From Priestia megaterium (GTDB lineage Bacteria > Bacillota > Bacilli > Bacillales > Bacillaceae_H), in NCBI RefSeq assembly GCF_009497655.1, contig NZ_CP023317.1, forward strand, positions 1,641,501 through 1,705,500: 64,000 nucleotides of DNA, written 5' to 3'. The position numbers were made by a program, and so were the translations under genes. Shown here one piece after another: positions 7,000 through 11,186 of the stretch. The notes under the pieces were generated by a model, which saw nothing but the letters and a program-made list of their open reading frames with translations, was not told the origin of the DNA and did no database searches. Numbering within the stretch: position 1 is the first letter of the stretch; every line of letters starts with the position of its first letter.

Positions 7000-7305
7000 G
7001 TGTTGAAATTATTATTTATAAGTCTAGTAAGCTGTTTAATCATTTATAGTGGGAAACGTGTATGGAAAAAAGGTAGTACTAATTTTATTGCTGGATATGG
7101 AAAGATATTTACACCTAAGGATGAAAAGCAGCTCGCTAAAGGAATTGGACTTATTATTATGTTGTTTGGCTTTGAAACTATAATATTTCCCATTCTTTCT
7201 TTATTTTTTGAAGGGCTTGGCTTTTATTATGGATTGCTGATTGTGTTGAACTTCTTCGCTTTATTTGGACTTATGATAAAGGATCAGGTGCAAAGAGAAG
7301 CCTAA
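7000..7305 (+). CDS. DUF3784-like small membrane protein
   Basis: 101 residues, three membrane helices (about 2-17, 47-66, 72-92). The segment KKGSTNFIAGYGKIF after helix 1, followed by a charged KDEKQLAKG run and a glycine-rich helix, matches the DUF3784 pattern. Function unknown. The start is GTG 7000, 10-11 nt after AGAAGGTG. It heads a run of four small genes on the same strand (7000, 7320, 7518, 7789) with 14-40 nt gaps, probably one transcript. Confidence 0.75.
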   Translation: MLKLLFISLVSCLIIYSGKRVWKKGSTNFIAGYGKIFTPKDEKQLAKGIGLIIMLFGFETIIFPILSLFFEGLGFYYGLLIVLNFFALFGLMIKDQVQREA

Positions 7306-8112: not shown

Positions 8113-8466
8113 ATGAAGAGAACACTTAGTTTTCTGTCAGTAGTTTATTTAATCGTTCTAACTGCATGTAATCAAGAAAGTTTAGGGACGAATACAGAGA
8201 GTTCTTCTGCTATCATTGTTGTAGTTGAAAACAAGGAATATAACGGAACAGAAGATAAATTAGATCAAACACAAGAAATAGGAGACCAAATAGGGACAAT
8301 AGAAAAGGAAACCAAAGCAACTAAAATGCCCGCGGGTAATAATCAATCAAACTATTTTACAGTTGGTTCAGAAATCTATTCAGTAAAAGGAACAGAGAAT
8401 TATATTATAGTTAAAGACAAAGATCATAAAAGTCAATTAATGAAAAAGGTAGTTCAAAAAAGGTGA
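8113..8466 (+). CDS. Small lipoprotein of unknown function
   Basis: 117 residues. A lipoprotein signal peptide ends in the lipobox LTAC with Cys19. The mature part is hydrophilic, Thr/Glu/Lys-rich (a likely disordered stretch at 20-75), then a short segment SNYFTVGSEIYSVKGTENYIIV that could form a beta hairpin. No family recognised. TGGAGG is 9-10 nt before ATG 8113. Monocistronic. Confidence 0.75.
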   Translation: MKRTLSFLSVVYLIVLTACNQESLGTNTESSSAIIVVVENKEYNGTEDKLDQTQEIGDQIGTIEKETKATKMPAGNNQSNYFTVGSEIYSVKGTENYIIVKDKDHKSQLMKKVVQKR

Positions 8467-8775
8467 GTATTATCTAATATTGTCAAACAAGATTTTAAGT
8501 CTCTTAACGAATATAAATATTATCTTGATACATTCCGCTTTTCCACCAGGAGTATTTGTCTTCCCCTTCAATCAACTGCTAGAAAGACCTAAACAAATGA
8601 AGTCTGCGTTTAGCTTAATAAAAAAACAAACTACTAATCGCTTGATCAATAGCTCGTTTTTTACTTCATCTAAAATACTTTTGTCTCAACCTCTTTTTTC
8701 ACCAGAATCTCTACTTCCGACTTTCTTATTCCCGAAAAAGAACTTTCCTGACACTGTTTTTCTAATCCGGAAATA
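8467..8775. other. Intergenic stretch upstream of the partition locus
   Basis: About 300 bp with no gene I can support. A TTG-started plus-strand frame (8480-8776) has no ribosome site and a low-complexity Phe/Ser/Pro translation. The minus strand reads for about 90 codons with one stop and includes the string NTPGGKAE, which might be a decayed gene, but I cannot name it. Confidence 0.4.
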
Positions 8776-8893
8776 AGTTCAACTAGATAAAAAAAATGTT
8801 GATATGTGTAAGTTTTTGATGATAAATCAGTTGAACTGAAGGATTGAAAATCTACCTTTTCTTTTGTATAATAAGTTCAACAGAAGTTCAACT
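8776..8893. promoter_or_regulatory. Four AGTTCAACT-type sites: putative parC centromere/operator
   Basis: The 9-mer AGTTCAACT occurs at 8776-8784 (+), as its exact complement AGTTGAACT at 8829-8837, as AGTTCAACA at 8874-8882 and as AGTTCAACT at 8885-8893. Two copies lie immediately downstream of the -10 element and one just upstream of the -35. This is the arrangement expected if the ParR-like protein binds the sites, both to repress its own operon and to load actin filaments on the DNA. Binding is an inference. Confidence 0.7.
8844..8872 (+). promoter_or_regulatory. SigA-type promoter of the parM-parR operon
   Basis: TTGAAA (8844-8849), exactly 17 bp, then TATAAT (8867-8872). The transcript would start near 8880, inside the two downstream AGTTCAAC sites, about 34 nt before the parM-like start. 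Confidence 0.8.
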
Positions 8894-8913
8894 AAAAAAA
8901 GAGGTGTATAGAG

Positions 8914-10095
8914 ATGAAAATTTCACGTTTTAATAAAGACTGTGGGAACTCAGTCGATATGAATATCATAGATGGATATCTATTTGATTTCCAAACCAAC
9001 GTAGTAGAACTCCAAAAAGAAGCTGCTGATTCATTCTTCACAGATGCTGTTACAGCACCAGAGGAATTTAAAAAGCGTATCTTATTATCTACAACCATTG
9101 GAGAGGAAGAAAAAGAACGTTATTTCTTAGTGGGTGACATTGCCGCCAGCCAACAATTAGCAAACAATCATATCAATCGTTTACATAATAAAATTACAAG
9201 TCATATTCCATACGTAACATTTTTAGCTGCCGTTGCATACTACCACGCGTTACACACAAAAGATCAAAAGGACAACAACATCCAAATTGACTATTTCTCT
9301 ACAATGTTACCAATTTGGTTACTAAAAAAAGAAAGTACGTTTGGTGAAGCGCAAAAGGCTATGGCAAATCGCTTTGTTGGTGATCACACTTTTTATATCC
9401 ATACCCCAGGATTTGAAAAAGAATTAAAAGTATCTGTGGAAGAAAGTGTTTGTTTAAAGGAAGGTGAAATCGCACGTTTTGCGTTAAAGAAAGACCTAAC
9501 GCTTCAAGACCGTGAAGATGCTAATGAATATGTGGAATGTGAAACCGTAATGATCGATATCGGTGGAGGATCCATTGATGTTGTAATCTTACCTGAAGGG
9601 TTGAAGGCTGCGAACAGTCGTGAATCGTTCCAAAGTATCGAGGGTATTCCCTACTTAGCACATATCGATAAGTTACGAAAAGAGAAATTCCCAGAGTTGT
9701 TTACCGATTTACGCGCTTTTGATCAATTTATTTTAGATAACTACAGCAAACAAAAGTTTGAACTAAAAAATGAAAACACAGGTGAATCCATTGATTTAAC
9801 AGCTCAAATCAAATCTTCTCTAAGAGATTATGTAGAGATCTTACTAGCTAAGTTAAATGATGTCGCCCCACCACCAGCAAATAAAATCCGAAAATATGTA
9901 TATAGTGGCGGTGTCGCTCCTACACTAGAAGTAGCGATTATGAATAGCATGCGTGAAAAAATTGGCGAAGAACGCACAGAGAAATATCATAAAGTGCCTG
10001 AGGATAGCCGTCACTTAAATTTATTCGGCTTAGAAATCCGAAGCATGGGGTACCTTCAAAAGAAACAAGCCGAGAAGAAAGCCGTTAAATCCTAA
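8914..10095 (+). CDS. ParM/Alp-family actin-like plasmid-segregation ATPase
   Basis: 393-residue actin-fold ATPase related to ParM, AlfA and Alp7A, which polymerise to push or pull plasmid copies apart. The phosphate-2 loop MIDIGGGSIDVV is clear at about residues 212-223, and the adenosine-region glycine pair appears as YSGGVAPTLE at about 331-340. The N-terminal phosphate-1 loop is weaker (RFNKDCGNS, where ParM has DxGxxx). Lengths and domain order fit the family. The start is ATG 8914, 9-10 nt after GAGGTG. It is followed after 17 nt by a ribbon-helix-helix partner gene and preceded by repeated sites, so the trio forms a ParMRC-type system. Nothing in the sequence suggests inactivation. No replication initiator gene is present in the window. 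Confidence 0.9.
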   Translation: MKISRFNKDCGNSVDMNIIDGYLFDFQTNVVELQKEAADSFFTDAVTAPEEFKKRILLSTTIGEEEKERYFLVGDIAASQQLANNHINRLHNKITSHIPYVTFLAAVAYYHALHTKDQKDNNIQIDYFSTMLPIWLLKKESTFGEAQKAMANRFVGDHTFYIHTPGFEKELKVSVEESVCLKEGEIARFALKKDLTLQDREDANEYVECETVMIDIGGGSIDVVILPEGLKAANSRESFQSIEGIPYLAHIDKLRKEKFPELFTDLRAFDQFILDNYSKQKFELKNENTGESIDLTAQIKSSLRDYVEILLAKLNDVAPPPANKIRKYVYSGGVAPTLEVAIMNSMREKIGEERTEKYHKVPEDSRHLNLFGLEIRSMGYLQKKQAEKKAVKS

Positions 10096-10112
10096 CAGCG
10101 TAGGTGATAACC

Positions 10113-10490
10113 ATGTCAGAGCGTCAAAACGCCTTTACGATTAAAACTAATCAGTTGAGTGATGAAGTCTATGATATACTTGCAAAATATGCAAAGTCTC
10201 GAAAATTAGGGGACTATATTTCATCTCTAATTGTTCGTGACCTTCATAGTTCATCTTCCAATCAAGTAGAAGCAGGACACAGAACAGAAGAACTTCTTGA
10301 ACATATCAATTCCGAACTACGGGAATTAAAGAAATTAGCTCAGTCCAACGGGTTTGTGAGTAAACAAGAGGAGATAGAAGAGAAGCCTTCAGAAAGCCAC
10401 CAAACCTTCAAAGAAGGTAAGGTTGCAGATCTAGAGCAATTATCTGGGTCATTAGATGATGATGATTTAGAGGAATACAACGATTTTTAA
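10113..10490 (+). CDS. ParR-like ribbon-helix-helix adaptor protein
   Basis: 125 residues. The N-terminal part (FTIKTNQLSDEVYDILAKYA then KLGDYISSLIVRDL) has the strand-helix-helix pattern of a ribbon-helix-helix DNA-binding domain (about residues 6-46). A charged linker with a possible short coiled coil (ELLEHINSELRELKKLAQ) follows, and the C-terminus is acidic and ends DDDDLEEYNDF. In ParR-type adaptors the C-terminal tail binds the actin filament end. It is the second gene of the partition operon. The start is ATG 10113 after TAGGTGA; upstream GTG 10104 overlaps the site. It probably binds the AGTTCAACT sites and represses the operon. Confidence 0.82.
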   Translation: MSERQNAFTIKTNQLSDEVYDILAKYAKSRKLGDYISSLIVRDLHSSSSNQVEAGHRTEELLEHINSELRELKKLAQSNGFVSKQEEIEEKPSESHQTFKEGKVADLEQLSGSLDDDDLEEYNDF

Positions 10491-10492
10491 TT

Positions 10493-10546
10493 AAAAAAGC
10501 TACTAGTATGTGGGACGAGACTGTCCCACATACCAGTAGCTTTTTT
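10493..10546 (+). terminator. Strong terminator of the partition operon
   Basis: Long stem (24-nt arms 10493-10516 and 10523-10546, one mismatch) ending in TTTTTT, directly after the parR-like stop. Confidence 0.92.
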
Positions 10547-10979
10547 GTTTTCAATATGTCTATTCGTTTTTGATACATTATCATATGTACAAAAAACGTG
10601 TTAAACCTAAAAAAATGGGAGGAAACAGCTTATTTATGGATAATAATAATTAGCACGAGTACTTTTATTTATTCTAATTTTGCTTTGTCTCAAGAACATT
10701 AATAATTAAGTTTAGGTATTCTAAATACCATATCGAAGCTCAATCACACCATGAAGTGTTAGATAAAAGGTACGCTTATCGTCTCCCAAGATGACAAGGA
10801 CATTGCGGAGTTTAGGTTGGATTCAAACGAATAAACATGACTATAAATTTATTAGATTAATAGCTTGCTAACTCTGAAGGTATTCAGAATTAGCGGGCTA
10901 TTGTTTTTACATTGAAACGCTTGTACGTGAATTTAATTTATATAGCTTTTTTAAGCAACATATAATTGATTGGCTCTAA
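10547..10979. other. Gene-poor gap with a gene ghost near 10765-10827
   Basis: No intact gene. Plus-strand codons 10765-10827 read KGTLIVSQDDKDIAEFRL before a stop, with another stop immediately upstream. The translation looks protein-like, and a terminator hairpin at 10859-10908 follows. I read this as the 3' end of a decayed gene; the family is not recognised. Confidence 0.4.
10859..10908 (+). terminator. Terminator hairpin after the 10.8-kb gene ghost
   Basis: AATAGCTTGCTAACTCTGAA (10859-10878) pairs with 10883-10902 with three mismatches, followed by GTTTTT. Confidence 0.75.
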
Positions 10980-11099
10980 TTATTTAGTCACGATAAGCGC
11001 TCGAATAATTTCATTCCAGTAGTATTTGAAATCTTTTTTACTCGTATCTTTTTGTGTTAAACTCATCGATTCCTTTGTATTTTCTTTTTTTATATTCAT
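10980..11099 (-). CDS. 39-residue peptide, divergent from the LysR gene
   Basis: A short frame, ATG 11099 to TAA 10980, encoding 39 residues. The N-terminus is very basic and hydrophilic (MNIKKENTKES), and the C-terminus is amphipathic and ends NEIIRALIVTK. AAGGGGA stands 8 nt before the ATG, which is good support. No family recognised. It lies divergent to the LysR gene, with the 27-bp palindrome at 11187-11213 between them, so it could be a target of that regulator. Confidence 0.55.
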   Translation of the reverse strand: MNIKKENTKESMSLTQKDTSKKDFKYYWNEIIRALIVTK

Positions 11100-11186
11100 T
11101 ATGATTTCCCCTTATCACTTTGTATTTAGTATGTTGTGGTTTGATTTACCATATTTTATAATGAAATTAACGATCGTTACAGATGA

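Follow-up and report, generated by a model that had tools for sequence, protein, structure and literature searches.

An Alp7AR partition cassette of plasmid origin in the Priestia megaterium chromosome and its possible service to a scarred plasmid in trans

The stretch of Priestia megaterium DNA analysed here (64,000 nucleotides, called the window) contains an actin-type partition cassette that, judged by its sequence, is a member of the Alp7 systems. Its parts and surroundings, in window coordinates, are as follows.

8479-8709: left end of the insert, without likeness to plasmids, containing one copy of a dispersed repeat
8710-10763, plus strand: captured plasmid-derived segment, by homology to plasmids
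8776-8784: site 1 of the alp7C-like array, AGTTCAACT
8829-8837: site 2 of the array, AGTTGAACT
8844-8872, plus strand: SigA-type promoter lying between sites 2 and 3 (TTGAAA-17-TATAAT, 11/12 consensus)
8874-8882: site 3 of the array, AGTTCAACA, one mismatch
8885-8893: site 4 of the array, AGTTCAACT, 11 bp past site 3
8914-10095, plus strand: alp7A, 393-aa actin-like ATPase, by Pfam and solved-structure matches
10113-10490, plus strand: alp7R, 125-aa adaptor with a conserved N-terminus and an acidic C-terminal tail
10497-10542: terminator-like hairpin of 20 pairs, with a T run after it on the plus strand
10764-10834, plus strand: remnant (last ~22 codons) of a lipoprotein-like host gene, disrupted here and complete in sister genome G007

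An earlier reading made from the letters alone (the sequence-only reading) had proposed a ParM/Alp-like actin at this locus, which was borne out and placed in the Alp7A family. The protein matched the Pfam family Alp7A_like_C (PF22128, E = 3.8e-63), its top match among solved structures was Alp7A (5ec0, E = 1.2e-116), and it was 50% identical to pLS20 Alp7A over the whole length. Residues D9/G11/N12, D215/G217-219 and G332/G333, which we take to form the nucleotide (ATP) pocket of Alp7A, are common to the two proteins. By analogy with pLS20 Alp7, the window Alp7A may segregate a plasmid by means of dynamic filaments.

The adaptor gene lies immediately 3' of alp7A, as in Alp7 systems, and starts at an ATG with AGGTGAT upstream (by eye); the mechanical ORF start was a GTG at 10104. 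Its product is homologous to Alp7R, being 29% identical over its full length (E = 5e-10) to the protein encoded behind alp7A on pLS20, and both proteins carry an acidic tail ending in DF. The adaptor had been called a ribbon-helix-helix protein in the sequence-only reading, and this DNA-binding fold is a candidate. A Pfam search with the window Alp7R returned zero families above the cut-off, the best match of a profile search in the PDB had an E value of 0.2, and the AlphaFold model was poor (pLDDT 63).

Among the alp7 loci read, two types were distinguished. Type I (Alp7A 92-95% identical, four sites) includes the window locus, and type II (Alp7A ~91%, R 67-69%, distal sites mostly gone) includes the locus on the plasmid C2 of the same cell. 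The four window sites follow AGTT(C/G)AAC(T/A), and the mismatch in site 3 is the identical last base found on type I plasmids showing four sites. Enrichment of AGTTSAACT over the whole window was rejected, with 22 matches (at most one mismatch) against 20.6 in shuffles. Four sites within 118 bp correspond to a Poisson P of ~1e-7, or 6e-5 after correction for the number of such stretches and 0.007 when every start is counted. Fourteen of 16 type I loci (window included, L064 left out as a duplicate of L077) contained four sites spaced 53-54/45-46/11 bp, and the remaining two contained three. Since such a cluster is improbable and its positions are repeated on the plasmid relatives, it is not due to chance.

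Promoter-like sites in 8400-10800 numbered nine, equal to the shuffle mean; the one at 8844-8872 scored best, and a similar TATAAT stands at the equivalent place in the type I copies compared. The array overlaps this promoter upstream of alp7A, as in Alp7 systems, and is the predicted centromere. At 10497-10542 the terminator scan called the hairpin on the minus strand, and the plus strand continues into TTTTTTG; an Rfam search of 8300-11100 gave sub-threshold matches over the terminator only (sau-19, 36.7 bits against 80 needed, and rliD). All of the parts that had been described from the letters, namely the actin and adaptor genes, four sites, a near-consensus SigA promoter and a terminator, were found where they had been placed.

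The window spans bases 1,641,501-1,705,500 of C1, the 5,027,195-bp contig of a three-contig assembly that also contains C2 (139,750 bp) and C3 (76,501 bp). The locus lies on this 5.03-Mb chromosome, not on an ordinary plasmid, and the flanking genes, suspected to be chromosomal, proved syntenic with sister genomes. A look at the same place in related chromosomes, which had also been suggested, found the locus absent from the site in all four sister genomes, unlike the conserved loci of cParM systems. Homology to the sister genomes stopped on the left at 8477/8478 in three of the four (G001, G003 and G007) and at 7257 in G008, and restarted on the right at 10764 in three (G001, G007 and G008) and at 10956 in G003. 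At the insertion site, G001 and G007 instead contained ~1 kb with a lipoprotein-like gene, complete in G007 but carrying a frameshift in G001, which presumably encodes a lipobox.

Unbroken homology to plasmids, for example to NZ_CP085443 (84%), extends over 8710-10770, and a few bases are shared at the right junction (by eye). Because the sister flanks are continuous, the locus is missing between them and 8710-10770 resembles plasmids, sequence comparison indicates that a ~2.05-kb plasmid fragment replaced host DNA (~1 kb in two sister genomes) in the present lineage. The simplest reading is a single illegitimate recombination event. Integration of a whole plasmid was not supported, as plasmid-like DNA was seen only at ~8710-10770; in the plasmid search of window positions 1-25000, the 15 of 88 records that were listed all fell within 8707-10509. 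The left edge of the insert holds, at 8533-8699, a copy of a dispersed chromosomal repeat of ~170 bp, of which 40 copies were scored in the genome, all on C1; the evidence speaks neither for nor against this repeat as the cause of the insertion.

Relatives of Alp7A were encoded on 136 of 72,556 plasmid records, 87 of them from Priestia, and the Priestia proteins were 90-95% identical to that of the window (best 95.4%). The 50,697 phage records gave one relative, 46% identical. A scan of genome contigs gave two, one of which was a type II alp7A under a Sphingomonas title and is likely contamination. In a DNA tree, the window copy was nested among plasmid copies with moderate support (SH-aLRT 93.8, UFBoot 86 for the group formed by it and 11 plasmid loci); protein trees gave no resolution of its position.

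The chromosomal location, the plasmid-borne closest relatives, the empty sister sites, the clean junctions and the nesting in the DNA tree together make it almost certain that the locus was captured from a Priestia plasmid. The suggestion of a captured system or a trace of a plasmid thus held for capture, on the strength of the plasmid relatives, empty sites and clean junctions, and gained no support for integration of an entire plasmid. The word orphan, also used for this locus, is inexact, since plasmid C2 of the same cell carries a second alp7AR, of type II. No rep gene lies beside the window locus, as had been noted, which is weak evidence since plasmid alp7AR loci are also distant from rep: among 16 Priestia plasmid neighbourhoods (2.5-6 kb of flank on each side), an annotated rep was present in one, p3_CACC119, by a count that rests on an incomplete gene table. 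With 15 of 16 plasmid neighbourhoods also devoid of an annotated rep, its absence from the window says little.

The clearest resident chromosomal Alp7A-type actin of the genome is another locus, C1:3322118-3323236, which, unlike the window locus, is conserved among the sister genomes. The downstream flank of the insert matched plasmids of 164-172 kb (L072, L073 and L077), neither p3 nor C3, which gives no support to the idea that the cassette simply moved to the chromosome from C3. The species sample of P. megaterium consisted of one genome.

Both reading frames, the promoter, the four sites and the hairpin are intact. Pairwise dN/dS between the window and 13 type I loci was 0.028-0.052 for alp7A and 0.06-0.19 for alp7R. 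In outgroup triplets, alp7A showed 29-45 silent and 3-6 replacement changes on the window side and 32-58 and 4-7 on the plasmid side. For alp7R the triplets gave a mixed result, replacements numbering 5-7 on the window side and 2-3 on the plasmid side with one outgroup, but 1-2 and 3-4 with the other. The captured Alp7AR is probably working, to judge from the intact cassette and an actin gene constrained like the plasmid copies. As part of the time was passed on plasmids, this constraint falls short of proving that selection acted on the chromosomal copy.

The main rival to a chromosomal role is therefore a passive relic, that is, a recent plasmid fragment with workable genes, no selected role and decay ahead of it. 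We regard this as a serious possibility, short of an even chance. The locus is known from one genome only and is found at that place in none of the four sister genomes, its insertion broke the lipoprotein-like gene, and the low dN/dS could predate the chromosome and have accumulated on plasmids. A relic is harder to reconcile with alp7A changes that are as constrained on the window side as on the plasmid side (those of alp7R being mixed), and with the undamaged promoter, four sites, two genes and hairpin.

The third contig of the assembly, C3, encodes a Rep that is 94% identical to the Rep of p3_CACC119 (331 aa searched), and a search of its 76.5 kb did not find alp7A. At C3:10205-10383 there is a scar in which the tail of alp7R is left. 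The DNA before it (C3:9670-10205) matched the gene pair preceding alp7 on p3, L077 and L008 (82-84%), and C3:10266-10383 matched the final ~117 bp of alp7R together with the terminator (80-88%), with ~2.1 kb missing at the scar (the array, alp7A and most of alp7R). C3 has lost its own alp7CAR by deletion. The scar was common to 17 PLSDB plasmids, 16 over the full 714 bp and one over 82%, all at least 95% identical; by accession adjacency, 12 of these had a type I companion, two had type II only and three had none.

Behind rep (Rep3) and a tyrosine recombinase gene, at C3:63467-63592, C3 has an array of its own. It consists of four AGTTNAACT sites (AGTTCAACT/AGTTAAACT/AGTTTAACT/AGTTTAACT) with spacing of 55/51/11 bp, compared with 53/45/11 bp in the window. 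C3 thus shows the motif and spacing of alp7C, with neither alp7A nor a whole alp7R in cis, that is, an orphan alp7C. The 1.05 Mb of loci examined contained groups of at least three sites in two settings only, ahead of alp7A and beside the recombinase on C3 and p3. A strict four-site pattern had one match in 10 Priestia genomes, on C3, and matched one contig in IMG/VR, which encodes Alp7A and Alp7R; because of the mismatch in site 3, most genuine type I arrays escape this pattern, and those of G003:C15 and G008:C7 escaped it as well. With up to one mismatch per site and spacing of 44-55/50-52/11 bp, the array was present on all eight plasmids read that have a C3-type recombinase (C3, p3, pBM600, L142, L144, L145, G003:C15 and G008:C7). 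Five of these were hand-picked from 42 records; 24 of the 40 listed match through the array stretch. Between the sites the sequence diverges among the eight plasmids.

On all eight plasmids the array follows the recombinase gene, which raises the alternative that it serves the neighbouring tyrosine recombinase as a resolution site, with a likeness to alp7C by ancestry or chance and no partition in trans. TnpI of Tn4430 uses a resolution site of such a kind, and on six plasmids the 11-bp pair lies within an inverted repeat (by eye). We nevertheless consider this explanation unlikely. The array occurs at type I loci and in the window with no such recombinase alongside. Of the integrases near alp7A, that adjoining it on pBM400 shows no relationship to the recombinase (E = 0.04), and that on L077, at a distance of 3 kb, shows a remote one (22%, E = 1e-9). 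G001 has an array with no close recombinase homologue (best E = 1.5e-5). On L115, the array stands at alp7A and a 55% recombinase homologue lies 3.2 kb from it. On the IMG/VR contig, alp7AR stands together with six sites in symmetric array (11/52/54/52/11), a related MerR protein (29%) and a related recombinase (55%). This makes it plausible from sequence that the array on C3 represents one half of an ancestral alp7 centromere whose genes were lost.

C3 also encodes a MerR/DUF3967 protein, and the stretch upstream of its gene is rich in CTAG (14 CTAG against ~2 expected from base composition). Counts of 11-14 were obtained in five of six regions of the C3 plasmid type, and L144, which is longer, had 14 against 9; L115 showed no CTAG excess. 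This protein and stretch may be the main partition system of C3.

Taken as a whole, the best explanation is that a captured, intact Alp7AR serves C3 in trans, to which we give a probability of roughly 0.4. A ~2.05-kb plasmid piece with a complete Alp7 cassette entered the chromosome. Alp7R made from it would bind the AGTTNAACT sites around the promoter of its own operon. As one pair of these palindromes follows directly on the -10 box, such binding should also control the operon; ATP-driven filaments of Alp7A would move the Alp7R-bound DNA. Filament dynamics of Alp7 and autoregulation by Alp7R are known from pLS20, with ParMRC as an analogue. C3, which lost its own alp7CAR, keeps the four-site array near rep, where chromosomal Alp7R could bind and from which Alp7A could segregate the plasmid. 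We tentatively favour such help in segregating C3, because Alp7R from the chromosome or from C2 is expected to meet the C3 array. Where the sequence-only reading considered a new job, this would be an old one carried out from a new location. A split system, with motor and adaptor genes on the chromosome and C3 as a cargo that has the centromere only, is possible if somewhat doubtful; more generally, Priestia plasmids with Rep3 and the recombinase might hitchhike, through an orphan alp7C, on any Alp7AR, plasmid-borne or chromosomal.

Among the 40 listed recombinase plasmids (of 42 records), 34 had an alp7A plasmid under a neighbouring accession number, two carried alp7A themselves and six, three of them of the C3 family, had no alp7A companion in PLSDB. 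Co-residence here means accession numbers at most 8 apart, with the NC records of one strain joined by name; such adjacency can mix submissions, and the CP0854xx rows and CP064271-CP064277 may span more than one strain. The co-residence may only mirror how common alp7AR is in Priestia. Against a trans role of the window locus, the type II Alp7R of C2 might serve C3 instead, and the array pair beside the recombinase is inside a longer inverted repeat (by eye) that could be a recombination core. Also counted against it were the mixed alp7R triplets, the MerR/DUF3967 candidate of C3 itself and the six companionless plasmids.

Two further roles were weighed. The captured centromere and Alp7AR could act as a chromosomal incompatibility device that titrates or mispairs incoming plasmids of the same type and so excludes them, and the genome does hold a type II alp7 plasmid and no type I plasmid. 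Cross-recognition between ParR and parC has been linked to incompatibility in Clostridium perfringens (PMC9426499). We consider this improbable, because closely similar type I loci live side by side in a strain: p3 and p5 coexist in CACC119 (A 97%, R 92% identical), as do pBM400 and pBM700 (A 94%, R 81%), some plasmids carry both types, and the genome is a single case (n = 1). Domestication for positioning the chromosome or for another cell function has been proposed for chromosome-encoded ParMs, a precedent given in PMC12270681, and the cis array of the window is intact on the chromosome. This is the least probable of the readings and a very remote one, as the sister genomes do not have the window locus, which sets it apart from the conserved cParMs and from C1:3322118-3323236.

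A search of open-licence literature found no paper on a chromosomal Priestia Alp7 locus or an orphan alp7C. The present case stands apart by its recent capture, for which plasmid relatives can be named, and by an arrangement split between the cassette and a plasmid with a scar. Accounts of actin-type plasmid partition usually present it as one package encoded in cis. Should the C3 array be served in trans, an actin motor could be shared or borrowed by plasmids and owned by a chromosome, which would bear on plasmid compatibility and on the purpose of chromosomal ParMs.

The window locus has the actin-adaptor order of pLS20 Alp7AR/alp7C of Bacillus subtilis (structure 5ec0). It differs from it in being chromosomal, where the pLS20 system is on a plasmid, and in its sites, as the window-type site is absent (at up to one mismatch) from the 260 bp upstream of pLS20 alp7A. 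The Priestia plasmids p3_CACC119, pBM400, pBM700 and pBM500 have Alp7A proteins 92-95% identical to that of the window and, for type I, the same sites and spacing; in contrast to these plasmid loci, that of the window consists of a bare 2-kb fragment within a chromosome. The cParM systems (PMC12270681) are chromosome-encoded, several being conserved on the chromosomes of their groups and others not. They resemble the window locus in having a ParM-type cassette with an adaptor and a site array on the chromosome, and the window locus differs in being a capture in a single lineage with plasmid relatives identifiable on the donor side. SGI1 (PMC10954446) exploits the ParAB of an IncC plasmid through stolen parS sites, and like C3 it has centromere sites without a complete partition system, the system being encoded elsewhere. 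That case involves ParABS and a plasmid-encoded motor, whereas the arrangement predicted here is of the actin type, with one copy of the motor on the chromosome.

A dispersed repeat of about 170 bp lies at the following position in the window.

8533-8699: window copy of the repeat; further copies on the chromosome (C1)

The genome contains at least 40 copies of this repeat (the window copy and at least 39 more places), and each of the 40 copies listed is chromosomal. Among these 40, orientation tracked the half of the contig, with 13 of 15 copies in the right half on the plus strand and 20 of 25 in the left half on the minus strand (Fisher P = 6e-5). The repeat had no match in Rfam.

On plasmids, alp7A was observed at two or three places on individual Priestia replicons, types I and II together (NZ_CP048884, NZ_CP085432 and others). 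Priestia type II alp7AR was also found on a contig of 3.2 kb whose record bears the name Sphingomonas sp. PsM26 (JARUXA010000101.1), which is probably contamination of that assembly. One IMG/VR contig, on which alp7AR lies under an array of six symmetrically placed sites, also encodes relatives of the recombinase and the MerR protein of C3, one of the strain's own plasmids; this contig is perhaps closer to a plasmid than to a virus.

IMGVR_UViG_3300033056_000006 (L115 / L147): IMG/VR contig, 54.6 kb
L139 3593-4494 (C3): CTAG-rich stretch upstream of the MerR/DUF3967 gene

Counterparts of the stretch and the gene were found on plasmid p3_CACC119 and in L142, L143 and L145; across these plasmids and C3 the stretch contains 11-14 CTAG per about 0.8-1.0 kb, against about 2 expected. 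Stretch and gene together constitute a candidate single-protein partition system.

The chromosome encodes a second Alp7A-type actin, which matches the Alp7A of the window at 49%.

G000:C1:3322118-3323236 (L061 6086-7243): second Alp7A-type actin gene, chromosome
L061 5366-6070: its partner gene

Across the loci concerned (L061, L062, L063, L066, L067 and L068), the surroundings of the actin gene were similar in all five megaterium-group genomes; the gene also occurs in another genus, at a different site (context from one of that genus's two genomes). The partner retains an Alp7R-like tail (FKEGQLI..TGTI..DVDF), has a new N-terminal part of ~55 aa with a hydrophobic stretch, and appears to contain an internal duplication. 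It is read as a derived Alp7R, possibly redirected to a target other than a plasmid.

Across the order, the Pfam family Alp7A_like_C (PF22128) was present in 158 of 299 genomes, mostly as a single copy of ~395 aa. In all four single-contig examples inspected, from a set including L128, L129, L130 and L131, an RHH-looking gene of 187-197 aa lay downstream. This pair may be the conserved cParMR that PMC12270681 describes in Bacillus.
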